From: Fimbriiglobus ruber
GTDB lineage: Bacteria > Planctomycetota > Planctomycetia > Gemmatales > Gemmataceae
Direction: 5' to 3'
DNA: 64,000 bases
Assembly (NCBI RefSeq): GCF_002197845.1
Contig: NZ_NIDE01000003.1
Location: 1-64,000, forward strand
Shown here piece after piece: positions 49,521-62,984 of this stretch. Both the position numbers and the translations under genes were made by a program. The notes beneath the pieces are model-generated. The model had not been told where the DNA came from. It saw only the letters and a program-made list of their open reading frames with translations, and searched no databases. Every line of letters begins with the position of its first letter. Position 1 is the first letter of the stretch.

Positions 49521-52500
49521 ATGGCGTGGAACATGAGGCTGGCTTCGGTCTTCGTGTTATCGGTCGGTCGGTCCGGCGGTTCCGTCGTGCGGCGCCGCGG
49601 TTGTCCATTACCATTCCGCCCGACGCTCGACTTGCTGGAACCGCGAAACATACCCTCCGCGGTGACGGTTAACGTCGGCCAGGTCGTCAACACGCTCAAC
49701 GACGACGTGATCGGGGTCAACCTGACCAACTTCGACAACGTCCTGAGCAGCGGCGACCAAGCCACGGCCGCCCCGGACCCGGGTTCGGTGTCGCTCCTCT
49801 CCGCCGCCGGGTTCCACATGGTCCGCCTGGGGAGCGGCGGGTCAACGGATTCGTGGCACTTCTATCAGGAGAACCAGGCTCCGGCGCTACCGTATTACGA
49901 CAGCGGGGCGGGGGAACTGGCGAACACGGCCGCCGCGATCGGGGCGGACGCCCTGGTCACATTCAACTACGGAACCGGCACCCCCCAGGAGGCGGCCGCG
50001 TACCTCGCGTACCTGAACGGCGACCCCGACAGCACGTTCCCGATCGGCACGGATTCGAACGGCGTCGACTGGGGCACCGCGGGATACTGGGCCACCCTCC
50101 GGGGGGAAAGCCCGGTCGCCGGCGACCCGCTCACGGTGAGCCCCATCGGCCCGCTCAATTTGAACATGCTCCGGGCCGGCCACCCGGCCCCGTTCGGGTT
50201 TCACGATTTCGAGGTCGGGAACGAAGCCTACTATCACGCCTGGACGAACGGCAACTCCTCGAACCCCTCGGCTTACGCCGGCTTCGCCGCCACCGTTGCG
50301 ACCCTCGCCGCCGGCATCGACCCCGACGCCCGAATCGGCATCGACTTCGCCGACCCCGGGAATTCCGCGGACCCGAACTCGTTGGAGAATACGTGGAACG
50401 TCCCGGTCCTCGCCGCCTGCCGGGCGGCCGGCTTCACCCCGGGCTTCGTTGACGACCACCTGTACTTGTACGACACGTTTTCGGAAGCGCCGTTGAGCGA
50501 CCAGGCACTGCTGACGCAGACGGTGAGCGACACGTCCAGCACCAACCCCGAGACCAACGTCCCGATCAACTGGGCGACCAGGGCGGCCGACGACCGGGCC
50601 GAGCTGAACGCCCAACTCGGCGCACAGGCCGCCGGCGTCCAGCTCCTGGCCGGCGAGTTCAACGCGGACGTCAACGCGGATAGTGTGACCCAGTCCACAG
50701 CCCTCACCAACGGGCTGCTGTTGGCGGACGCGATCGGCAGCATCATTCAGACCGAGTACCAGAGTCTGACGTTCTGGGACTTCCGGAACTTTTATAACGA
50801 CCCGGCCCAATCACCCCCGGCGGGAGACACGTTTTACGGGTGGCGGACCGGCTCCGATCAGGGAATGGTCGGATCGGACAACCCGAACGCCCCTCCCGGC
50901 ACCGGGCCGGACGTCCCGTATCCGACTTATTTTGCCGAAGAGTTGGCCTCGAAACTCGGAGTAACCGGCGACTCCGTTGTCGCGGCCCAAACCGACAACC
51001 CGCTGGTCTCGGTTTACGCGGTCGCGCAGCAGAGCGGGCACCTGGCCTTGTTGATGATCAACAAATCCTCCACCGCCGCCGACACGGCTGCCGTATCCGT
51101 GACCGGGTTCGCTCCCGCGGCCGGGGCGGAATTGTGGCAATACGGCGAGGCGGAAGACACCGCCCAGGAAAACTCGGCCGACGGCTCGGCGGCCCTCAAC
51201 CACACGACGCCGACCTTGAGTGTGACCGGCGGCCAGTTCTCGATCACCTTGCCCGCGTACTCGATGTCGGTCCTGGTTTTGTCCCCGGCCCCGGCCGCTC
51301 CCCCGACACCCACCGTTACCCGTGTCAGCCCGCCATCGGGTCCGGTGGCGGGCGGAACGACCGTGACCATCACCGGCACGAATCTGGTCGGCGCGACCGC
51401 GGTTCAATTCGGCGGGACCGGTGCGGCGATTGTGAGCGACATGGCGACCCAGATTGTGGCGACCAGTCCGGCGGGCAGCGCCGGTTCTGTTGACGTCACC
51501 GTCACGACGACCGCCGGCACGTCGCTCACCTCGGCGGCCGACGTCTTCACCTACGTCGCGCCACCGGCGGTGACGGACGTCGGCCCGGCGTCCGGCCCGG
51601 ATACCGGCGGCACCACCGTCACCATCTCGGGCACCGACCTGGCCGGCGCGACCGGGCTCGCGTTCGGCGGGACGTTGGCAACGATCGCGAGCGACACGGC
51701 GACGCAAATCGTGGCGACGAGTCCGGCGGGCATGGCCGGCCCGGTCGACGTCATCGTCACGACGGCCGCCGGCACGTCAGCCACCTCGGCGGCCGATGTC
51801 TTTACCTACATTTCGTCGGCCGTGCCTCCTGTGGTTCCGCCCGTCGTCCCTCCAACGGTTCCGCCGGTCACGCCCCCCGTACCCCCGGTCGCACCTCCGA
51901 CTCCCCCCACGGTACCGCCGGTCGTACCGCCCGCGGCCCCCCCAACAGTGCCGCCGGCCGTCCCGCCAATCACGCCACCCACTGTGCCCCCGCCGGTTCC
52001 ACCGGTCGTGCCCCCATTGGTTCCGCCGGTCGTGCCCCCATCGGTTCCGTCGGCCGTTCCGCCCGTAGTGCCTCCGCCCGTCCCGCCGACGGTTTCTCAG
52101 GGGCCGAATGCGGCCCTGGTCGGCATTCCCCAGTTCGCCGTCGGCGCGGACGCCGGCGGCCCGGGATCGGTCACGGTTTACAACCCGGACCAATCGGTCG
52201 CCTACGTCGCCACCCCGTTCGGGGCATCCTTCACCGACGGCGTCCGCGTGGCCGTCGCCGACCTCACCGGAGACGGCGTCCCCGACCTGGTCGCCGGGAC
52301 GGGTCAGGGCGTCAGTAACCAGGTTGTGGTAGTAGACGGGAAGACCCAACAACAGATCGTGTCATTCCACCCGTTCGAGATGTCCTTCACCGGCGGAGTC
52401 TTCGTGACCCTCGGCGACCTCAACGGGGACGGCGTCCCGGACCTGATCGTCACCCCGGATCAATCCGGCGGACCGGTCGTCGCCGTCTACGACGGCGCGG

Positions 52501-53138
52501 CCCTAGGGAAAGGAATCGTGACCCAGCTGGCCCGGTTCCTCGGCATCAACGACCCGAGTTTCCGCGGCGGGGCGCGGGCGGCAGTCGGCGACGTCAACGG
52601 GGACGGCGTCGGCGACTTGATCGTCTCGGCCGGGTTCGGCGGCGGCCCGCGGGTGGCCATCTACGACGGGAAATCCGTCGCGAGGAATGCCCCTTCGGAG
52701 TTGCTGCCGGACTTCTTCGCGTTCGAGACGTCGCTACGGAACGGCGTGTACGTGACGGCCGGCGACCTCACGGGCGCGGGTTACGCCGACCTGATCTTCG
52801 GGGCCGGCCCGGGTGGCGGGCCGCGGGTTCGGGCCGTGGACTCCAAGCAACTTCTGGCGGCTGGGGATTTCTCGTCGCTGGACAACGCGTCGGTAGCGGG
52901 CGCCGGACTGGCCGACTTCTTCGCGGGCGATCCGAGCAGCCGGGGTGGGGTCCGGGTCGCCGTGAAGAATCTCGACGGAGACGAGAAAGCCGATCTGGTC
53001 ACCGGATCGGGGACCGGGAGCGGGGCGCAGATCACGACTTACACCGGGGCGGCGCTGACGGCGGCCCCAAATTCCCCGGCGGCGGGGTTGGACTTCGACG
53101 CGCTGCCCGGGTTTACAGGAGGTGTGTTCGTGGGGTGA
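49521..53138 (+). CDS. secreted glycosidase-like protein with TIG, Pro-rich and FG-GAP regions
   Basis: 1205 residues. The N-terminus has RPTLDLLEPRNIPS, the 'LE.R..PS' motif typical of planctomycete surface/secreted proteins. Residues ~50-600 look like a TIM-barrel glycosidase plus beta-sandwich (GFHDFEVGNEAYYHAW with a conserved NE pair, a candidate acid/base; TPGFVDDHLYLYD; QLLAGEFNAD, a candidate nucleophile; C-terminal sandwich with LLMINKSS), resembling clan GH-A families such as GH79 or GH44. Residues ~605-775 are two IPT/TIG domains (VSPPSGPVAGGTTVTITGTN). Residues ~780-865 are PPVVPP-type repeats, then ~340 residues of FG-GAP/VCBS-like repeats (VAVADLTGDGVPDLVAG; VTLGDLNGDGVPDLIV). 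Substrate unknown. Confidence 0.75.
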   Translation: MAWNMRLASVFVLSVGRSGGSVVRRRGCPLPFRPTLDLLEPRNIPSAVTVNVGQVVNTLNDDVIGVNLTNFDNVLSSGDQATAAPDPGSVSLLSAAGFHMVRLGSGGSTDSWHFYQENQAPALPYYDSGAGELANTAAAIGADALVTFNYGTGTPQEAAAYLAYLNGDPDSTFPIGTDSNGVDWGTAGYWATLRGESPVAGDPLTVSPIGPLNLNMLRAGHPAPFGFHDFEVGNEAYYHAWTNGNSSNPSAYAGFAATVATLAAGIDPDARIGIDFADPGNSADPNSLENTWNVPVLAACRAAGFTPGFVDDHLYLYDTFSEAPLSDQALLTQTVSDTSSTNPETNVPINWATRAADDRAELNAQLGAQAAGVQLLAGEFNADVNADSVTQSTALTNGLLLADAIGSIIQTEYQSLTFWDFRNFYNDPAQSPPAGDTFYGWRTGSDQGMVGSDNPNAPPGTGPDVPYPTYFAEELASKLGVTGDSVVAAQTDNPLVSVYAVAQQSGHLALLMINKSSTAADTAAVSVTGFAPAAGAELWQYGEAEDTAQENSADGSAALNHTTPTLSVTGGQFSITLPAYSMSVLVLSPAPAAPPTPTVTRVSPPSGPVAGGTTVTITGTNLVGATAVQFGGTGAAIVSDMATQIVATSPAGSAGSVDVTVTTTAGTSLTSAADVFTYVAPPAVTDVGPASGPDTGGTTVTISGTDLAGATGLAFGGTLATIASDTATQIVATSPAGMAGPVDVIVTTAAGTSATSAADVFTYISSAVPPVVPPVVPPTVPPVTPPVPPVAPPTPPTVPPVVPPAAPPTVPPAVPPITPPTVPPPVPPVVPPLVPPVVPPSVPSAVPPVVPPPVPPTVSQGPNAALVGIPQFAVGADAGGPGSVTVYNPDQSVAYVATPFGASFTDGVRVAVADLTGDGVPDLVAGTGQGVSNQVVVVDGKTQQQIVSFHPFEMSFTGGVFVTLGDLNGDGVPDLIVTPDQSGGPVVAVYDGAALGKGIVTQLARFLGINDPSFRGGARAAVGDVNGDGVGDLIVSAGFGGGPRVAIYDGKSVARNAPSELLPDFFAFETSLRNGVYVTAGDLTGAGYADLIFGAGPGGGPRVRAVDSKQLLAAGDFSSLDNASVAGAGLADFFAGDPSSRGGVRVAVKNLDGDEKADLVTGSGTGSGAQITTYTGAALTAAPNSPAAGLDFDALPGFTGGVFVG

Positions 53139-53488: not shown

Positions 53489-54355
53489 ATGAGTAGCAAC
53501 AAAAACCCCCGTATCGCCGAGATCCTGGAGCGGCACGAGGCGGCTTTGTTGGCGGACTGGTTGGCCGCGCAAAAAGCCTCTCCGACGTACCGACCGGACC
53601 TCATCAAAGAAGGCGAACTCCGGGACCAGAGCCGCGAGTTCCTCCGGTTGTTGACCAAGGCGGTCGCCAGCGGCGGCACCGATGTGGAAGGCTCCGAGTG
53701 GCAAGACGTGCGGGATCTTCTCTCGACCGTCTCGCAGTCTCGCGGACAAAAAGGGTTTTCCCCGTCCGCTACCGCGATGTTCGTCTTTTCGTTTAAAGAG
53801 CCGCTGTTTACTTACATCCGCAAGGAATTCGCCACCGACGCCCATGGCATGGCCGATGAGACCTGGACGGCAAACGTCCTGCTCGACCATCTCGGGCTCT
53901 ACACCACGGAAATCTACCAGCAGACCCGCGAATCGGTCATTCTGCGGCAGCAGCAGGAGATGCTCGAACTGTCGACGCCCGTGGTCAAAATGTGGGACGG
54001 CATCCTGGCCCTTCCGCTGATTGGCACCCTCGACAGCGGCCGCACCCAGACCGTGATGGAGAACCTACTCCAGCGGATCGTCGAGACCGGCAGCGAGACC
54101 GCGATCATCGACATCACCGGCGTGCCGACCGTCGACACCCTGACCGCCCAACACCTGCTGAAGACGGTCGCGGCGGCCCGCTTGATGGGGGTCGACTGCA
54201 TCATCTCGGGCATCCGCCCGCAGATCGCCCAGACGATCGTTCACCTCGGGATCGACCTGTCCGCGGTGACCACCAAGGCCAACCTTGCCGACGCCTTCGC
54301 GTTATCTCTCAAGCGTCTCGGGCTCACCGTCGTCCGCCAGACTTCCGGAAGGTGA
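53489..54355 (+). CDS. rsbR: RsbR-type stressosome protein
   Basis: ATG 53489 ([20 protein letters not shown]); an ATG four codons upstream is possible. N-terminal ~140 residues are an RsbRD-type helical sensor domain ([22 protein letters not shown]), followed by a linker and a STAS domain: [58 protein letters not shown]. The T in VDT corresponds to the phosphorylated Thr of Bacillus RsbR proteins. It forms the stressosome with RsbS and sequesters RsbT. Its stop overlaps the next start region. Confidence 0.9.
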
Positions 54356-54357
54356 CC

Positions 54358-54759
54358 GTGGAACGCATTCCGATTCTTAAAATGGGCCGCTTCTTACTGG
54401 TCAGTATCCAAGTCGACATGCACGACCGGCTGGCGATGACCTTACAGGACGATCTCACGACCCGGATTAGCGAGACGGGCGCCCGCGGGGTGTTGATCGA
54501 CATCTCGGCGCTCGATCTGGTCGACTCGTTTATCGGTCGCATCATCGGAACGATCGCCTCGATGGGCCGCGTGCTGGACGCCGACGTCGTGGTCGTCGGG
54601 ATGCGCCCGGCCGTCGCGATCACCTTGGTCGAACTCGGGATGTCTCTGCCGGGCGTACGGACCGCCCTCAACATCGAGCGGGGCATGCGGTTGTTGGAGC
54701 AATCGTCCAGCTCCGAGTCCGAGCCGACGGGGGGGGCCGATGCCCGTCCTGAAGAATGA
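54358..54759 (+). CDS. rsbS: RsbS-type STAS protein
   Basis: 133 residues; GTG at 54358 ([20 protein letters not shown]), with another in-frame GTG at 54352 overlapping the rsbR stop. Single STAS domain: [20 protein letters not shown] keeps the phospho-acceptor Ser (VDS) of RsbS, then [20 protein letters not shown]. Forms the stressosome core; phosphorylation by RsbT releases RsbT. Overlaps rsbT by 20 bp. Confidence 0.9.
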
Positions 54760-55144
54760 CACGTTGCCGATCCGATCTGACGGCGACGTGGTCCAGGTCC
54801 GACAGCTCATTCGGAACCGGGCCGTCGAACAGCGCTTCGGGCTGGTCGATCAGACGAAGATCGTGACCGCGGCTAGCGAGCTGGCCAGAAATACTTTGGA
54901 GTATGGCGGCGGCGGGACCGTCCGGGTGGAGGTTCTGGAAGAAAAAGGTCGTGTGGGTATTCGGCTCACTTTTGAAGATCAAGGCCCGGGAATTGCGGAT
55001 GTGAATCTGGCGTTGACGGATGGCTACACGAGCGGCAAGGGAATGGGACTCGGACTCGGTGGCGCGAAGCGACTGACCCACGAGTTTTCCATAGATACCA
55101 AACCCGGCGCAGGAACTCGTGTCACCATTACCCGGTGGAAGTGA
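54740..55144 (+). CDS. rsbT: RsbT-type serine kinase
   Basis: 134 residues, ATG 54740. GHKL ATPase fold with N-box [16 protein letters not shown]1 box [15 protein letters not shown] and G2 box [16 protein letters not shown]. It phosphorylates RsbR and RsbS in the stressosome and, when released, activates a downstream phosphatase; here the next gene encodes a PP2C-type domain. Translationally coupled to rsbS. Confidence 0.9.
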
Positions 55145-56252
55145 GCAAGTAATTGCTCGCAGCCGGGCGTGCCGTGTCTCAATAGTCGACAAGTTTCGGT
55201 CGTCTGGTGATCGATCTTACCCGAGCATCGCCCTGCACGACCCGGTATCCATAGTCGTTGACGACCCGAGCCGTGTCGGTGAAGCACGGCGGGTGGCCGT
55301 CGCCATCGCGGCTTCCGTCGCGATGAGTGATGTCGATCAGGGGCGCGTTGCCCTGATCGCGACGGAAGCCGCGACGAACCTGATCAAGCACGCCGGCGGT
55401 GGGGAAATCGTCGTCCGATCCGTCCCGACGGAACTTGGAGGCGGTGTCGAACTTCTCGCCCTTGATCGCGGTCCGGGCATCGTGGATGTCGGCAAGTCTC
55501 TTCGGGACGGGTTTTCGACGACCGGCACCGCCGGCAACGGGCTCGGCGCCATCCGACGACTGTCCGACGAATTCGATATGACTTCGACCTCGAACATCGG
55601 GACAGCGATTCTCGCCCGGGTTCGCGATAAACAAACCGCCGGCTCGCATCAAAAACGATATTGGCGGTCGGGGGCGGTCTGCCTTCCGGTCGCGGGGGAA
55701 GTGGTTTGTGGGGACGCGTGGGTGGTGATGACCTCGGCAGAGCAAACAAGTATTCTCGTCGCCGACGGACTGGGACACGGGTTGGCCGCGGCTACGGCTT
55801 CGGGTGAGGCTGTGCGCGTGTTCCGAGGGATGGCTCATGCCCCGCTTGAGCGTATTTTACGCGACCTCCACTCCGCCTTGCGTCCGACGCGCGGGGCCGC
55901 GGTTGCGGTCACGACGGTCGACCATTCGACCCGCACTCTTCAGTATGCCGGGATCGGAAATATCGCGGGAGTGATCGCCGGGCCGGACAAGCGACAAGGG
56001 CTAGTATCTTTGAATGGAACTCTGGGCCATGAACTCCGAAAGATCCAGGTCTTCGAATACCAGTGGCCCCCGGAGGCGGTACTAGTTCTCCATTCGGACG
56101 GCCTTGCTACGCAGTGGGATCTGCACCGGTATCCGGGACTTTCTTCCCGCCACCCGGGGTTGATCGCCGGGGTGCTCTACCGCGATTTCCGTCGCGGTCG
56201 GGACGACGTGACTGTCCTGGCTATTCGCGATCGCGACGAGGGGCCGTCGTGA
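55119..56252 (+). CDS. GHKL-ATPase/SpoIIE-type phosphatase fusion
   Basis: 377 codons from a GTG at 55119 overlapping the end of rsbT by 26 bp; the first ~45 codons may be untranslated. Residues ~50-165 are a second RsbT/RsbW-like ATPase (ATEAATNLIKHAGGG; LDRGPGIVDVGKSL; GNGLGAIRRLSDEF). Residues ~185-375 are a PP2C/SpoIIE domain resembling RsbX (GEVVCGDAWVVMTSAEQTSI; ADGLGHGLAAATASGEAV; GRDDVTVLAIRD). By analogy it would dephosphorylate RsbR/RsbS to reset the stressosome. Ends with GTGA overlapping the next gene. Confidence 0.85.
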   Translation: MSPLPGGSEQVIARSRACRVSIVDKFRSSGDRSYPSIALHDPVSIVVDDPSRVGEARRVAVAIAASVAMSDVDQGRVALIATEAATNLIKHAGGGEIVVRSVPTELGGGVELLALDRGPGIVDVGKSLRDGFSTTGTAGNGLGAIRRLSDEFDMTSTSNIGTAILARVRDKQTAGSHQKRYWRSGAVCLPVAGEVVCGDAWVVMTSAEQTSILVADGLGHGLAAATASGEAVRVFRGMAHAPLERILRDLHSALRPTRGAAVAVTTVDHSTRTLQYAGIGNIAGVIAGPDKRQGLVSLNGTLGHELRKIQVFEYQWPPEAVLVLHSDGLATQWDLHRYPGLSSRHPGLIAGVLYRDFRRGRDDVTVLAIRDRDEGPS

Positions 56253-58390
56253 CACGAATCCTCGCCCTCGACATCGCGGACGAACAAGGCATCATCCTCG
56301 CCCGCCGCCGGACCCGGCAGGTCGCCGGGTTGATCGGTTTCGACTCCCAGGACCAGGTCAGGCTGGCGACCGCCGTATCCGAAGTGGCCCGGAACGCATT
56401 CCAGTACGCGGGCCGCGGGCGGGTGGAATTCGTGCTCGACGGCCGAATCTTCCGCGTGACCGTTCGAGACCACGGCCCCGGGATTTCCAACCTGGACGAC
56501 GTACTCGAAGGCCGCTACACGTCGTCCAACGGTGCGGGCTTGGGTTTGGTCGGAGCCCGACGGTTCGTCGACGAGTTCAAAATCGAATCCCCGCCGACCG
56601 GGACGGGTACGATCGTCTGCCTGGGGCGGGAACTGCCCCGGCTCGTTTCGTCTCCCTCCGCCCGCGACCTGGCACGAATTACCGACGAGCTCGCCAAGTC
56701 GACCCCGGACGACCTCTTCGCGGAAGTTCGTCGACAAAACCAGGACCTCCTCGGCGCGCTCGCCGACCTCCGGGAGCGCGAAGCCCGTCTGGCGGAGATG
56801 AACCGCGAACTGGAGGAAACGAACCGCGGCGTCGTCGCGCTGTTCGCCGAACTGGAGGAGAAAGCTGATTCTGTGCGCCGGGTGTCCGACCTGAAAACGC
56901 GCTTCCTGTCGAACATGAGCCACGAGTTTCGCACCCCGTTGAACTCCATTATGGGCCTCGCGCAGCTGCTGCTGGATCGGGCAGACGGTCCGCTGACTGA
57001 AGAGCAGGAGAAGCAAGTCACGTTCATCCGGCGGGCGGCCGGCGGCTTGTCGGAGTTGGTGAACGATTTACTCGACCTGGCGAAAGTCGAAGCCGGGAAG
57101 GTCGTCATCCGGCCGGAGGAATTTCGCATCGTCGACCTGTTCGCGACTTTGCGCGGCATGATGCGGCCGTTGTTGACCCCGGACGTGATTCTCTCGTTCG
57201 AGGACACCTCGGGCGACATCGTTTTGAACACGGACGAAGGAAAGGTCTCGCAGATCCTGCGAAATTTCTTGTCGAACGCCCTGAAGTTCACCGAGCGCGG
57301 AGAGATCCGCGTGACCGCCGCGGTCGGGCCGGGGCGAACGATCCTGCTCGCCGTGTCGGACACCGGGATCGGGATCGCTCCGGCCGACCAGGAGCAAATC
57401 TTCGAGGAATTCGGCCAAGTTGATAGCGCCGTCCAAAAAAGGGTCAAGGGGACGGGGCTCGGGCTCCCGCTATCGAAGCGGCTGGCGGAACTACTTGGTG
57501 GGCGAGTATCCGTTAAAAGTAAGCCCGGGATCGGCTCGACGTTTTTTCTCACGATACCGTGCGTGTACACAGGACAGCAACCGGGCGGCGGACCGACCCC
57601 GAGTTCCCTCGCCCGCTGGCTCGACCCCGCCCGCCGTACTGGGCTCGTCGTCGGAGACGACCCGACGAGCGAAGTCCTTTACGAAAAGTCTCTCACCGCA
57701 GTCGGAGTTCAGGCGGTCGTGGCCCGGTCCGCCGCCGCCGCGCGAGAGATGATTCGCACGACCGCCCCGGCCGTTGTGATTTTAGACTCGGGCTCGGGGG
57801 ACGGAGTCGGGTGGGACTTGTTGGCCGAGTTAAAGGAGAGCGCGGCGACCCGCTCAATCCCGGTCGTTGTCGTCAGTTCCGGCGACGAGAAACTCCGGGC
57901 ACAGGCACTCGGGGCCGCGGCCTTCGGCCGTAAGCCGGTGGACGGCGAGTGGCTCGTTCGTCGTGTCCGCGAGCTACTTCTTCCGGATACGACCTGGCAG
58001 ATTCTTATTATTGATGACGACGAGGTGGCGCGATATCTCCTCCGGGGCATGCTCGACGGGACGCCCTTTTCCATTGTTGAAACGACGGGCGGCCGGGAGG
58101 GATTGCGGGCGGCACGCGAAATCCGCCCGCGGGCGATCTTTCTGGACCTGGTGATGCCCGACCTGTCGGGTTTCGAAGTTCTGGACCTGCTCAAAGACGA
58201 TCCGCACACCCGAGACATCCCCGTGATCGTTTTCACGTCCCAAATATTGAGCCTGGGCGAAACCCAGAATTTAGCTAACCGCACCGCGGCAATCTTTTCC
58301 AAAGAACCGAACGAGCCGCGGGAAGACACGTCGCGGAAAATCCGGGAGGCGCTAGACCGGGCGATCTCCAGTGGGGGCCTCAATGAGTAA
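56249..58390 (+). CDS. hybrid histidine kinase with RsbT-like N-terminal ATPase and two receiver domains
   Basis: 713 residues; GTG 56249 overlaps the preceding stop (GTGA). Domain order: RsbT-like GHKL domain (~10-135: ATAVSEVARNAFQYAGRG, RDHGPGISNLDDVL, GAGLGLVGARRFVDEF), coiled coil (~155-215), HisKA with NMSHEFRTPLNSIMGLAQ (H-box), HATPase_c (LRNFLSNALKFTERGE, SDTGIGIAPADQEQIFEEF, GTGLGLPLSKRLAELLGG), then two receiver domains (ILDSGSGDGVGWDLL; AIFLDLVMPDLSGFEVLDLL). No membrane segment, so cytoplasmic. The fused RsbT-like module suggests direct control by the stressosome. Confidence 0.85.
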   Translation: MTRILALDIADEQGIILARRRTRQVAGLIGFDSQDQVRLATAVSEVARNAFQYAGRGRVEFVLDGRIFRVTVRDHGPGISNLDDVLEGRYTSSNGAGLGLVGARRFVDEFKIESPPTGTGTIVCLGRELPRLVSSPSARDLARITDELAKSTPDDLFAEVRRQNQDLLGALADLREREARLAEMNRELEETNRGVVALFAELEEKADSVRRVSDLKTRFLSNMSHEFRTPLNSIMGLAQLLLDRADGPLTEEQEKQVTFIRRAAGGLSELVNDLLDLAKVEAGKVVIRPEEFRIVDLFATLRGMMRPLLTPDVILSFEDTSGDIVLNTDEGKVSQILRNFLSNALKFTERGEIRVTAAVGPGRTILLAVSDTGIGIAPADQEQIFEEFGQVDSAVQKRVKGTGLGLPLSKRLAELLGGRVSVKSKPGIGSTFFLTIPCVYTGQQPGGGPTPSSLARWLDPARRTGLVVGDDPTSEVLYEKSLTAVGVQAVVARSAAAAREMIRTTAPAVVILDSGSGDGVGWDLLAELKESAATRSIPVVVVSSGDEKLRAQALGAAAFGRKPVDGEWLVRRVRELLLPDTTWQILIIDDDEVARYLLRGMLDGTPFSIVETTGGREGLRAAREIRPRAIFLDLVMPDLSGFEVLDLLKDDPHTRDIPVIVFTSQILSLGETQNLANRTAAIFSKEPNEPREDTSRKIREALDRAISSGGLNE

Positions 58391-60287
58391 CCAGCCGATC
58401 CGTGTCGCGGTGGTCGACGACAACGAGGCCAAGCGGTACACCATCGCCCGCGTCCTCCGCCGGGCCGAGTTCGAGGTACTTGAGGGAGTGGTCGGCGCGG
58501 ACGCCTTTCGATTGGCCCCGGCGGCCGAGTTGATCGTGTTAGACATCAAGCTCCCGGACATGAACGGCTACCAAATCTGCCGGCAGCTCAAGAGTAATCC
58601 CGAGACGGCTCACATCCCGATCCTGCTCATATCGGCGACGTTCGTCGGGCCGGACAGCCAGGTCGAGGGGTTGGAGAGTGGGGCCGACGCCTACCTGACC
58701 GACGCGGCCGAGGCGCCGGTTCTGGTCGCGACCGTTCGGGCACTCTTGCGCATGCGGCAGGCCGAAGAACTCGCCCGCCGCGGTGAAACCCGCGTCCGCG
58801 TCGCGCTCGAAGCCGGTCAGCTCGGCGAGTGGAATTTCGACCCCGGGACGAATACGCTCAACTGTTCGACCCAGTGTAAGGCGATCTACGGCCGCGGGGC
58901 CGACCAGCCGCTTTCTTACGACGACCTCCTGGCGGCCGTCCACGCCGACGACCGCGCGGAGTTCGCGACTACGTTCAGTCGTGCAGTAACGGAAAGCGTG
59001 GGATACGACACCGAGTACAGGGTGGTATGGCCGGACGGGAGTACGCACTGGGTACTCGTCCGCGGTCAGGTGACGACCGTCCCCGGCGTGGGCGACCGGC
59101 GGTTGATCGGTGTGGCCCTCGACATCACCGACCGCAAACGGTCCGAAGAGGCACTGAAAGACGCGGACCGCAAGAAGGACGAGTTCCTGGCACTCCTGGC
59201 CCACGAACTCCGTAACCCGCTCGCGCCGATCCGGACCGCGCTGCACATCGTCCGCCAGCCGGGCGTGGACGCGGTCGACGTGGCCAAGGCGCGCGACACG
59301 ATGGCCCGGCAGCTCGCCCACATGGTCCGGCTGATCGACGATCTGCTCGACGTCAGCCGAATCTCCAAGGGGCGGATCGAACTCCGGAAAGAACGGGTCG
59401 CTGTCCGCGACATCCTGGACATCGCGGTCGAAACGAGCCGGCCCCTGATCGAAGCCGGCCGCCACGAGTTGCAGATCGACCTGCCTCCCGAGCCCCTGTA
59501 CATTTTCGCCGACCTGACCCGAATCGGGCAGGTCGTCGCGAACCTGCTCAACAACGCGGCCAAGTACACCCCGGAGGGGGGACACATTCGTCTGTCGGTT
59601 CGGCGCGCGACCGACGAGGCGGACGAAGTCGTGGTGCGCGTCGTCGACAACGGGACGGGAATTACCCCGGAGATGCTGCCGAAAGTTTGGGGACTCTTTA
59701 CCCAGTCCGACCGGACTTTGGGCCGGTCGCAAGGCGGCTTGGGAATCGGGCTGACGTTGGTCAGGCACCTGGTCGAGTTACACGGCGGTGCCGTCGACGC
59801 CCGGAGTGCGGGAATCGGGATGGGCAGCGAGTTCATCGTTCGTCTGCCATTGCCCCCCCCACAGGAAAAATCGACCGGCTCGTCGCCGATTCCTGCCGTC
59901 CCGCAAACGTCTTCGTCGGTCGACCCCCACCGCGTACTCGTGGTCGACGACAATGTCGACGGGGCCGAGAGTCTTGCAACTCTTTTAAGTCTTCAAAACC
60001 ACACCGTTCGCGTCGCGCACGACGGCCCGAGCGCGCTGGTCATTGCCGAGGAATTCCGACCCGACGTTGTACTTCTTGACATTGGTTTGCCCGGCTTGGA
60101 CGGGTACGAAGTCGCCCACCGGTTGCGAGCGCGAAAGGAATTCCAGCACGTTTTCTTGGTTGCTCTCACAGGCTGGGGCCAAGACTCGGACCGCGAGCGA
60201 TCGCAAGCCGCCGGATTTGACGTTCACCTCGTAAAACCAATCGATCCGGCCACCCTCTTACAAGTCGTCAGCCGGCACGAGGGTTAA
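58383..60287 (+). CDS. hybrid histidine kinase REC-PAS-HisKA-HATPase-REC
   Basis: 634 residues; ATG 58383 overlaps the upstream stop (ATGAGTAA). N-terminal receiver (VAVVDDNEAKRYTIARVL; LIVLDIKLPDMNGYQIC), PAS/PAC (GEWNFDPGTNTLNCS..WVLVRGQ..VALDITDRKRSEEAL), HisKA H-box LLAHELRNPLAPIRTALHIV, HATPase_c (VVANLLNNAAKYTPEGGHI, VDNGTGITPEMLPKVWGLF, QGGLGIGLTLVRHLVELHGG) and a C-terminal receiver (LVVDDNVDGAESLATLL; VVLLDIGLPGLDGYEVAHRL). Soluble. Last gene of the rsb operon; no separate response regulator is seen. Confidence 0.9.
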   Translation: MSNQPIRVAVVDDNEAKRYTIARVLRRAEFEVLEGVVGADAFRLAPAAELIVLDIKLPDMNGYQICRQLKSNPETAHIPILLISATFVGPDSQVEGLESGADAYLTDAAEAPVLVATVRALLRMRQAEELARRGETRVRVALEAGQLGEWNFDPGTNTLNCSTQCKAIYGRGADQPLSYDDLLAAVHADDRAEFATTFSRAVTESVGYDTEYRVVWPDGSTHWVLVRGQVTTVPGVGDRRLIGVALDITDRKRSEEALKDADRKKDEFLALLAHELRNPLAPIRTALHIVRQPGVDAVDVAKARDTMARQLAHMVRLIDDLLDVSRISKGRIELRKERVAVRDILDIAVETSRPLIEAGRHELQIDLPPEPLYIFADLTRIGQVVANLLNNAAKYTPEGGHIRLSVRRATDEADEVVVRVVDNGTGITPEMLPKVWGLFTQSDRTLGRSQGGLGIGLTLVRHLVELHGGAVDARSAGIGMGSEFIVRLPLPPPQEKSTGSSPIPAVPQTSSSVDPHRVLVVDDNVDGAESLATLLSLQNHTVRVAHDGPSALVIAEEFRPDVVLLDIGLPGLDGYEVAHRLRARKEFQHVFLVALTGWGQDSDRERSQAAGFDVHLVKPIDPATLLQVVSRHEG

Positions 60288-60606: not shown

Positions 60607-62049
60607 TACCGCTGTCACTATTGACTTTTTCTGGTAGACTCGTGGGTGAAGTAAACCCAGACACTTCCCGGAGTTCCGCATGGATGCGGCCGCCATCTAC
60701 CAGCGATTCGTCGAACAGGCTCCGGCTGCCGTCTTGATCCACGGTCTGATCCAGAGCTGTATGTCCCCGGAGTTCCTGGATCAAACGGCCGCCCCCCACC
60801 TGCCGGCGTCCCCGAACCCCCGCCAACTCGCGTTCGCGGATCTGGTGGAGATCCTATTGCCCGTCGTCTTCGGGTCCGCGACCTCGGTTCGGCACTCGTA
60901 CCGACAGGCGACCCACATGCACGCCGTGGCGACACTCAAGTGCGTCTACGAGCGACTCGACCGGACCCCGCCGGCCGCCGTCGCCGCACTCGTCGGGGCC
61001 GTCGCCGATCGCGTCGGCCCACTGTTCGACACCCCGGCCACCGGACCCCTCCGGTTCCGAACTCTGGATGGGAATCACTTGGCCGCGACGCAGAACCGGT
61101 TGGCCGACCTGGCTGGCCGGCCGGCTCCCCTCCCGGGTCAGGCGATCGTTCTCCGGGACCAAGCGACCGGCGTGTTCGTCCGCATCCTGTTGCACGAGGA
61201 CGGGCATGCGAACGAGCGGGCCCTGCACGCCCAATTGATGCCGGCATTCGAGCCCGGGGATGTGGTCATTGCGGACAGCTCGTTCTGCACCGAAGGGTTC
61301 CTCACGGGCGTTCAGGCCCGGGGGGCGGCGTCCGTCGTACGCCACCACGGTGGGGTCGGGTTGACCCCGGTCGGCGACCGGATCGACCACGGGTTGGTCC
61401 CGACCGGACGGGTGTACGAGACGCGGGTGCAATACGCCCAGACGGCTCTCGTCCTCCGACTCGTCGAGATCGAACTGTGTCAGCCGACGCGGGAGGGGAT
61501 CACCGTCGTGGGAGTACTGACCGATGTCCCGGCCGAGACCCTGCCGGCTCCGGACGTGGCGGCCACGTACCTGCGTCGGCGAACGATCGAAGTCGCGTTC
61601 CAGGAATTGGCCGACGGGTTGCGCGGGGAGGTCGACACGCTCGCGTACCCGAAGGCCGCGTTGTTCGCGTTCGGGTTGGCGGTCGCCGTGTACAACCTCT
61701 TGCAGGTTGTCCGACGGGCAGCCGAGCACCACGCGGTGGCGTCGGGCGAGCCGATTCCGGACCCGGTGTCCCCAGTCCTGTTGGGGCACGAGGTGCGTTC
61801 GTTCGCCGCGGGTGTCGCCACCGCGCTGAACGGGAACCCCGACATGCCCACGCCCGCGTGGACGGTGGAGCGGTTGCGGGCGTGGGTCAAGACGTTGGCC
61901 CGCCGGTTGACTGACGGGCGGTATGCGAAGAGCAAACGCGGTCATCGCAAGGCGCGACCCAAGACGCCCAAAGCCCCCAAGGGCTCGCACACTGCGACCG
62001 CCCGCGTTCTCGAACAACGACGCATCAAAAGTCAATAGTGACAGCGGTA
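60607..62049 (+). mobile_element. IS4-family element IS-S, 1443 bp
   Basis: Terminal repeats TACCGCTGTCACTATTGACT and its complement. Perfect 11-bp target duplication GCATTGCGTCT (60596-60606 and 62050-62060). Complete and apparently recent. Confidence 0.9.
60680..62038 (+). CDS. IS4-family transposase (IS-S)
   Basis: 452 residues, one frame, ATG 60680 (MDAAAIYQRFVEQAPAAVLI). D in FRTLDGNHLAATQNR, D in DVVIADSSFCTEGFL, E in the YLRRRTIEVAFQEL motif (Y-(2)-R-(3)-E). The C-terminal tail is very basic (KSKRGHRKARPKTPKAPKG). The stop lies in the terminal repeat. Unlike the island elements it stands alone in unique DNA. Confidence 0.9.
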   Translation: MDAAAIYQRFVEQAPAAVLIHGLIQSCMSPEFLDQTAAPHLPASPNPRQLAFADLVEILLPVVFGSATSVRHSYRQATHMHAVATLKCVYERLDRTPPAAVAALVGAVADRVGPLFDTPATGPLRFRTLDGNHLAATQNRLADLAGRPAPLPGQAIVLRDQATGVFVRILLHEDGHANERALHAQLMPAFEPGDVVIADSSFCTEGFLTGVQARGAASVVRHHGGVGLTPVGDRIDHGLVPTGRVYETRVQYAQTALVLRLVEIELCQPTREGITVVGVLTDVPAETLPAPDVAATYLRRRTIEVAFQELADGLRGEVDTLAYPKAALFAFGLAVAVYNLLQVVRRAAEHHAVASGEPIPDPVSPVLLGHEVRSFAAGVATALNGNPDMPTPAWTVERLRAWVKTLARRLTDGRYAKSKRGHRKARPKTPKAPKGSHTATARVLEQRRIKSQ

Positions 62050-62189: not shown

Positions 62190-62915
62190 TCAGTCGTGGG
62201 TATTGGTGAAAATCAACTCGTTGCAAGCTGCCGCGACCGCCGCCACGTGAGACGTGGTCGGTTCCCAGCAGCAAACCGCCCACGCACTCATGGTCTCGGG
62301 CGGTCCGACGACGGCCGGCCGGTCTCTGGGGTCGAGATCCACTACCGCCCGATCCAGACCGCGGATCCCGCACCCGAGGCCCTTCAACACGGCTTCCTTG
62401 CAAGTCCACCCGCGTAGAAAACCGGCCGGCTGCAACTCCCCGGGAAGGTTTTGATACTGCTTCCGTTCGGCCGGCGCGAAGTACCTCTCGACTAACCCGT
62501 CCGCGTTCGCGACAGTCCGTCTAAACTCCACGTCGACGCCGACGCGCACTCCCGCCACGGCAAAAACCGCGACGCCGTCCGTATGGCTGATGTTGAACAG
62601 CAACCCCCTGCCCCCTTCGCCCAGCGCGGGCTTCCCGTCCGGTTCGACCGTGATCGGCACGTCGCCCGGCGCCACACCCGTGTAAGCCCCGAGGAGCCCT
62701 CTCAGCAACCCGCGACCGCACAGGAATTGATCCCTGGCCCGGGCGTGCGTGTACCGTTCCGCCCGTTTCCGTTCGTCGGCGACTAACACCGTCGCGAATT
62801 CGTCCGGGCGCACTTCCAGGGTGTCGAACGGGGCCTGCCACACGTGGACTTCGTTCGCCGGAAGAACCAGCGGCGCGACTGGTAGCTTGGTCAGCGTGCG
62901 GACGACGACGTGCAT
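62190..62915 (-). CDS. 4'-phosphopantetheinyl transferase, Sfp type
   Basis: About 241 residues from ATG 62915 (MHVVVRTLTKLPVAPLVLPA); an ATG 20 codons upstream would run into the divergent gene's promoter region. Motifs: RGLLRGLLGAYTG, NISHTDGVAVFAVAG, the Mg-binding GVRVGVDVEFRRT, then RYFAPAERKQYQ and GWTCKEAVLKGLGCGI (W..KEA..K). It transfers phosphopantetheine from CoA onto carrier-protein serines of fatty acid, polyketide or peptide synthases. No synthase is in the window, so the partner is elsewhere. Confidence 0.85.
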   Translation of the reverse strand: MHVVVRTLTKLPVAPLVLPANEVHVWQAPFDTLEVRPDEFATVLVADERKRAERYTHARARDQFLCGRGLLRGLLGAYTGVAPGDVPITVEPDGKPALGEGGRGLLFNISHTDGVAVFAVAGVRVGVDVEFRRTVANADGLVERYFAPAERKQYQNLPGELQPAGFLRGWTCKEAVLKGLGCGIRGLDRAVVDLDPRDRPAVVGPPETMSAWAVCCWEPTTSHVAAVAAACNELIFTNTHD

Positions 62916-62984
62916 CAGGTAAGACCACAGCCGGAGGCGGGTTGGGGTTGCGACTCCGCGGCGCGAACGGTACACCCTGTCGCC

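Follow-up and report, generated by a model that had tools for sequence, protein, structure and literature searches.

The first 64,000 nucleotides (nt) of contig NZ_NIDE01000003.1 of Fimbriiglobus ruber (hereafter the window) carry, at positions 53489-60287 of the plus strand, an operon of six genes, each overlapping the next, in which the stressosome genes rsbR, rsbS and rsbT are followed by a phosphatase gene (X) and two hybrid histidine kinase genes (K1 and K2). The first kinase opens with an RsbT-like domain of its own, hereafter K1N. We read K1N as the stressosome-responsive input of a phosphorelay, and the operon as a stressosome-to-phosphorelay system, with a probability of about 0.52. 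This is argued because N-terminal domains are exchanged among kinases related to K1, because K1N accompanies stressosome genes and because the helix that follows it is modelled as running without a break into HisKA. Stressosomes with two-component output are already known; the RsbT-like domain on the kinase appears to be the new element.

K1 (GTG 56249..58390) consists of K1N, a helical linker, HisKA, HATPase_c and two REC stretches, as judged by Pfam, alignment and structural model. K1N occupies residues 1-133 (56249..56647) and matches HATPase_c_2 with E 7e-15; at E 0.01 the K1 N-terminus shows no RsbU_N (PF08673). Predicted alone, K1N reached a predicted local distance difference test score (pLDDT) of 92.8. 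Its top match among solved folds is SpoIIAB (1l0o; Z 18.3, 131 residues, 2.2 Å), further matches are RsbW (6m36, Z 16.3) and UsfX (8ih8, Z 15.3), and SpoIIAB/RsbW/UsfX-type partner-switching proteins fill the first ten places (Z 18.3-13.7). LvrC (Z 12.5) and SiaB (Z 11.3) come after these ten, and PDK/BCK and histidine-kinase domains score Z 9.9 or less. That K1N would be an ordinary histidine-kinase CA domain is ruled out by these fold scores and by Pfam. A fold search with whole K1 returned histidine-kinase cores. Sequence searches of the PDB retrieved four SpoIIAB sequences and one histidine kinase with K1N, and no match at E 0.01 with RsbT.

Residues were counted in the 78 loci where all three HATPase domains of the operon (those of RsbT, X and K1N) exceed 110 residues. 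The ATP site of K1N is kept nearly throughout, with E45 in 100%, N49 in 98%, D74 in 97% and both G97 and G99 in 100% of the domains, and the arginines common to K1N and RsbT are conserved as well (R19 100%, R23 92%, R48 100%), so that K1N carries RsbT-type residues of both the catalytic and the interface kind. RsbT R19 and R23 are reported to lie within the interface with RsbU (PMC12143880). In a tree of 251 HATPase domains, RsbT (81 sequences), the X HATPase (82) and K1N (78) each formed one clade; the K1N clade, with support 1.0, stands beside those of RsbT and X and outside the former, and seven further stand-alone RsbT proteins fall between the clades. Three RsbW-type domains of the window genome, the only outgroup, stand apart from all of these on a long branch. 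An RsbW-type anti-sigma identity of K1N is not favoured, since the tree, with that three-domain outgroup, groups K1N with RsbT and X.

The stretch between K1N and HisKA is of nearly fixed length, at 200-211 residues in 79 of 89 K1 proteins. The three in which it reaches 225 or more were left out of the linker alignment. In the remaining 86 the latter half of the linker, with the consensus LNRELEDTNRGVVALYAELDEKA, is conserved to the same degree as HisKA (mean top-residue frequency 0.77 against 0.75); a strict form of its core motif occurs in 75 of them. AlphaFold2 predicted one unbroken helix from the linker into HisKA, spanning K1 residues 156-242 (56714..56974) and including the ETNRGVVALFAELEEKA motif, with a mean pLDDT of 90.4 and a predicted template modelling score of 0.56. 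The linker was found once clearly and once weakly in the window genome, and a search of 392 genomes of the phylum gave linker matches above 80 bits in six, which are the same six that have a K1-type fusion.

The genes ahead of K1 form a stressosome module in the expected order and with the expected domains. The gene rsbR (ATG 53489..TGA 54355) encodes an RsbRD_N sensor domain (E 2e-26) and a STAS domain (E 1e-15); rsbS (GTG 54352..54759, overlapping rsbR by 4 nt, with an alternative start at GTG 54358) a single STAS domain (E 3e-7) with a VDSF serine; and rsbT (ATG 54740..55144, overlapping rsbS by 20 nt) a stand-alone switch-kinase-type HATPase (HATPase_c, E 2e-13), as Pfam, tree and residues agree. 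X (GTG 55119..56252) joins an N-terminal RsbT-related HATPase (HATPase_c_2, E 1e-13) to a C-terminal SpoIIE/PP2C phosphatase (E 2e-17) and is RsbX-like by its operon position. Start codons were read from the sequence only, and that of X is a probable one; if correct, X overlaps rsbT by 26 nt, and K1 overlaps X by 4 nt. K2 (ATG 58383..60287, overlapping K1 by 8 nt) has the order REC-PAS-HisKA-HATPase-REC, with two REC stretches, PAS_3, HisKA and HATPase_c recognised by Pfam; its N-terminal REC is, from gene order and domains, the likely phosphoacceptor of K1. The first-pass annotation had proposed just this succession of overlapping genes, with an RsbT-like ATPase both in the phosphatase and, ahead of HisKA, in the first kinase. 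All six genes are present on one strand, the tree places the X HATPase near RsbT, and Pfam, predicted fold, tree and residues concur on the kinase.

Conservation of the module was assessed on proteins from 91 loci, comprising the window, 80 named loci from the scan described below and 10 further ones. The VDSF serine is kept in 79/79 module RsbS proteins and the RsbR threonines in motifs LSTPV and VDTL in 78/78 and 77/78 (one gap); we take these to be the known stressosome phosphosites. The PP2C aspartates of X are kept in 82-83 of 83 proteins.

When named genomes were scanned with nine K1N queries, at least 579 places were confirmed, and the best 80 of them were retained; this selection is biased to close relatives and gives no frequency. 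Among these 80, R, S, T, X and K1 occur together in 70 loci from 11 phyla, whereas all 80 cover 12 phyla according to their records, and several are metagenome bins that may be misnamed (L162, for instance, is labelled Klebsiella pneumoniae). The gene order is R-S-T-X-K1, with a median of 6 nt from the X stop to the K1N start (74 loci). Eight loci are clipped by contig ends (L124, L131, L140, L164, L183, L184, L188 and L199), and in L177 all genes are present, its kinase core being missed by the query and its HisKA found by Pfam. A REC domain opens K2 in 67 of the 69 complete cases. In seven loci K2 was not found within 600 nt, and three of these lie at contig ends. A search for the fusion in other planctomycetes, as had been suggested at the outset, thus located it there (58% identity over K1N with Limnoglobus roseus, which is listed in the same family) and far beyond. 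Chance or a local oddity is ruled out by the recurrence of the gene set in 11 phyla. In a Desulfuromonadales bin a second K1N-bearing kinase frame (521 residues) lies between rsbT and X (L142:6167-7730, plus strand), which gives that operon two RsbT-like kinases.

Deinococcus radiodurans R1 (Deinococcota) has the six-gene set on its megaplasmid MP1 (NC_000958; DR_RS15570-DR_RS15595, with K1 as DR_RS15590), where the annotation names two each of STAS proteins, anti-sigma regulatory factors and ATP-binding proteins; this locus (L230, NC_000958.1 25219-31023) lies near insertion sequence elements and a ParB gene. Five of the six genes are plasmid-borne in Sphingomonas aliaeris. Plasmid carriage in these two suggests that the set was spread by plasmids.

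In 397 genomes of the class we found 33 linker-bearing kinases, distributed over 30 genomes. Nineteen have K1N and adjacent stressosome genes, among them one in broken frames (G482), one whose rsbR is lost at a contig end (G585) and one with a diverged K1N undetected by Pfam (G709). Five carry another N-terminal domain, for which the three scanned gave no Pfam match, and have no R, S, T or X in the surrounding DNA examined; one (G615:C265) has a decayed K1N and linker motif on a 6.3-kb contig lacking rsbR, rsbS and rsbT. Four of these last six lie on contigs shorter than 10 kb, for which the absence of the stressosome genes is weak evidence. Conversely, Sphingomonas, Caulobacteraceae and Methylobacterium have K1N and the linker joined to another type of kinase core, with no K2 recognised. 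Loci of this kind are L147, L158, L177, L184 and L231, with a core of the GGIAHDFNN/GGVAHDFNN type. Because five related kinases carry a different N-terminal domain on the same linker, and because K1N and linker are found on other cores, the K1 N-terminal position is an input slot.

Several findings weigh against K1N as the stressosome-responsive input. The first concern the domain itself. The aspartate of the RsbT DG[FY]T motif, which we place at D92 of B. subtilis RsbT, is present in 97% of module RsbT proteins, whereas K1N has glycine there in 98%; and the C-terminal tryptophan of all 78 RsbT proteins is absent from K1N. Because of these two differences and the separate clades, K1N is, on sequence grounds, a sister paralogue of RsbT and not its orthologue. 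RsbT D92 is described as contacting the RsbU linker (PMC12143880). A single member, the K1N of G442, also lacks the catalytic asparagine and part of the ATP lid.

The second group concerns the gene neighbourhood. The remaining eight of the 33 kinases, all planctomycete (those of G003 and G012 among them), stand in complete R-S-T-X-K1-K2 operons and keep the linker but have no K1N, because of which K1N is dispensable in some operons. Locus L163 combines K1 with a shortened X and lacks R, S and T in the 8 kb upstream. In thirteen other planctomycete operons of R, S, T and SpoIIE phosphatase (L102-L106, L202, L203, L208-L210, L212-L214), four have a histidine kinase without recognised K1N or RsbU_N after X; in the other nine, none was recovered with our queries directly behind X. 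K1N-type fusions also occur without stressosome genes in the DNA examined (L107 and L108), and the linker motif is kept in the five kinases with another N-terminal domain and no rsbR, rsbS or rsbT nearby. The idea that the linker motif is an RsbT-specific docking site was dropped for this last reason. Of the two fusions, L107:5467-6792 (G146) joins an RsbT-like domain and an Hpt domain in one protein, possibly another route from an RsbT-type domain to a phosphorelay; L108:9222-10520 (G222, minus strand) has the RsbT-like domain on a HisKA kinase, with no stressosome genes in 19 kb and no TNRGVVALYAEL motif, and its genome is not among the six with the linker. In L291:9093-11051 (minus strand, G754), a single open frame (HATPase-SpoIIE-linker-HisKA-HATPase) takes in both X and a K1N-less K1, which looks like an X-K1 fusion.

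In another explanation, RsbT acting in trans would be the true messenger, as it is with RsbU, and once freed would bind the helical K1 linker; K1N would be an accessory (for dimerisation or as a tether, for instance) or a decoy in competition with RsbT for the core. We regard this as a possibility, though one to be held with reserve. The eight operons without K1N retain both rsbT and the linker, and RsbT is the protein that retains the aspartate at the D92 position. Moreover, two residues past that position RsbT has tryptophan in all eight K1N-less operons and phenylalanine or tyrosine in operons with a fused K1 (18 were read; 77 of the 80 by pattern, the other three being phenylalanine), although the eight form one clade and so represent a single event. 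Against RsbT as the messenger, the ATP site is kept in nearly all 78 K1N domains, beyond the needs of a mere tether; the linker also occurs in the five kinases that have another N-terminal domain and no stressosome genes nearby; and the aspartate is shared by X (98%). Trees of the kinases differ in where they place the eight. FastTree nested them among fused kinases (0.929 for the node with 21 fused kinases and the eight), whereas IQ-TREE, with 57 rows, of which 26 were other named fused kinases drawn at random, and with L286 left out, set them apart from all 42 fused rows with support 99.9. The outgroup branches are too long for the root to be trusted, and K1N may have been either lost or primitively absent in this clade. 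Since eight operons lack K1N, RsbT in trans may suffice on its own, and cis and trans control may each have a share.

As to output, the first-pass annotation noted the lack of a sigma factor, RsbW and RsbV and favoured a phosphorelay over release of sigma-B. The preference is supported: the window genome, which is 97% complete, has no match to RsbU_N (PF08673), the known RsbT receptor, at E 0.001, a control with B. subtilis being positive, and no SigB/F/G-type sigma factor above cut-off (the best TIGR02980 match has 134 bits against a cut-off of 234), and K1 stands beside stressosome genes in 11 phyla. Of the 80 named loci, 44 were chosen for a genome survey, and the 42 genomes searched likewise gave no RsbU_N above cut-off, with three weak matches below it. 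The absence holds for the six genes, and the rest of the window has no match to RsbW-type (PF13581) or SigB/F/G-type (TIGR02980) models. It does not hold for the genome, and here lies a further point against our reading: an RsbV-like STAS protein and an RsbW-like HATPase_c_2 protein (108 bits) are encoded side by side on another contig (G000:C11, about 146.6-147.4 kb). A search with RsbS recovered no genes besides rsbS and rsbR; for RsbV in the rest of the window this is weak evidence of absence, as the search overlooked this STAS gene and none with a STAS profile was made. The pair (L097:9585-10433, minus strand) has a SpoIIE phosphatase about 5 kb away, is possibly a separate partner-switching system, and may engage in cross-talk with the operon. 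It does raise the alternative that the stressosome acts through an RsbV/RsbW-type switch elsewhere, with K1N serving K1 as a sensor of ATP or energy, and five SpoIIE phosphatases outside the operon could be cited in its favour. We consider this unlikely, given the lack of RsbU_N and of a SigB/F/G-type sigma factor noted above, the RsbT-type arginines that K1N keeps, and the fact that 70 of the 80 loci have it together with R, S, T and X.

In the mechanism that we favour, in which K1N is the input of the phosphorelay, RsbR and RsbS would form the sensing core, which RsbT would phosphorylate upon stress, as the conserved sites and known stressosomes suggest. K1N would be a duplicated RsbT placed in the input slot of a histidine kinase and would dock onto the STAS surface of RsbR/RsbS; once the core is phosphorylated, it would probably leave as RsbT does, this direction of switching being the presumed one. 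Its departure would alter the state of the near-fixed-length helical linker that runs unbroken into the HisKA dimerisation helix, akin to the way in which RsbT in trans orders the RsbU linker. That ordering is a published model (PMC12143880), and by analogy it likely supplies the physics of the K1 switch. K1 would then autophosphorylate and pass phosphate to its own REC domains and presumably to the N-terminal REC of K2, while X may dephosphorylate and reset the core. The final regulator is not encoded in the operon, and no gene or regulator recurs after K2 as an output across phyla in the 80 loci.

A bolder form of this scheme makes K1N a working RsbT-type Ser/Thr kinase on the stressosome, which would phosphorylate RsbS/RsbR and switch the histidine-kinase half on its release, a direct handover that would dispense with a diffusing messenger and constitute a major stressosome output in bacteria without SigB; in this full form we hold it only tentatively. 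Alternatively, K1N could act as a Ser/Thr kinase in cis on RsbS, RsbR or K1 and mainly set the sensitivity of the stressosome and not receive its signal. The catalytic-type Glu, Asn and Asp, present in 97-100% of the 78 domains, and a fold of the partner-switching Ser kinases would suit such a role, but the asparagine is lost in G442, and a separate rsbT is present in the operon wherever enough DNA is covered, except in L163. We find this very improbable.

Immediately upstream of the operon (window 49521-53138) lies the gene of a large protein that combines TIG and FG-GAP repeats with a long proline-rich PPxVPP stretch; downstream are a DDE transposase gene (60680-62038) and, on the other strand, one for a 4'-phosphopantetheinyl transferase (62193-62975). 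A promoter scan found 2 promoter-like sites where 1.0 would be expected, and 17 terminator-like sites where the expectation was 7.0.

Stressosomes with two-component output were reportedly described by Pané-Farré as early as 2005. The closest parallel is Vibrio vulnificus, in which RsbR, RsbS, RsbT and a phosphatase are likewise followed by two-component genes (VvD1 and VvD2) and no sigma factor (PMC9237108; PMC10014275); the Vibrio stressosome is treated in PMC4976288 as well. VvD1/VvD2 show the same transcription kinetics as the stressosome genes, an interaction of VvRsbT with VvD1 could not be demonstrated, and RSTX modules followed by HisKA/REC proteins and effectors bearing RsbU_N are described (PMC9237108). 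The Vibrio RsbR has a globin sensor where the present one has RsbRD_N, its RsbX is a single-domain protein whereas X combines HATPase_c_2 and SpoIIE, and the portions available name no RsbT-like domain in its kinase, whereas K1 carries one.

Histidine kinases and diguanylate cyclases with RsbU_N are known (PMC9237108), with Moorella MtG and a gammaproteobacterial kinase as examples in PMC12143880, an article that also models RsbU_N histidine kinases. Like K1, such kinases are stressosome-linked and have a dedicated N-terminal input domain and a coiled-coil linker; RsbU_N effectors, however, carry the receptor of RsbT, and K1 carries a copy of RsbT itself. With the RsbRST-RsbU-RsbV/W-SigB pathway of B. 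subtilis the operon shares the stressosome core with its conserved phosphosites, and the K1 switch is modelled on the action of RsbT through a helical linker; unlike B. subtilis, the genome has neither an RsbU_N match nor a SigB-type sigma factor over cut-off, and the output of the operon is histidine kinases. Mycobacterial Rv1364c (3ke6) resembles K1 in that partner-switching parts are fused in one chain, but according to PMC12143880 these are phosphatase, anti-sigma and anti-anti-sigma domains, and no RsbT-like domain is joined to a histidine kinase there. Our literature search retrieved no RsbT-like domain fused to a histidine kinase, although the reviews of Pané-Farré (2005, 2017), which lay outside that search, may mention one. 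For stressosome signalling in bacteria without SigB, an RsbT-like domain borne by the kinase gives a testable physical link, and D. radiodurans R1, with its full six-gene set, is a place to test it.

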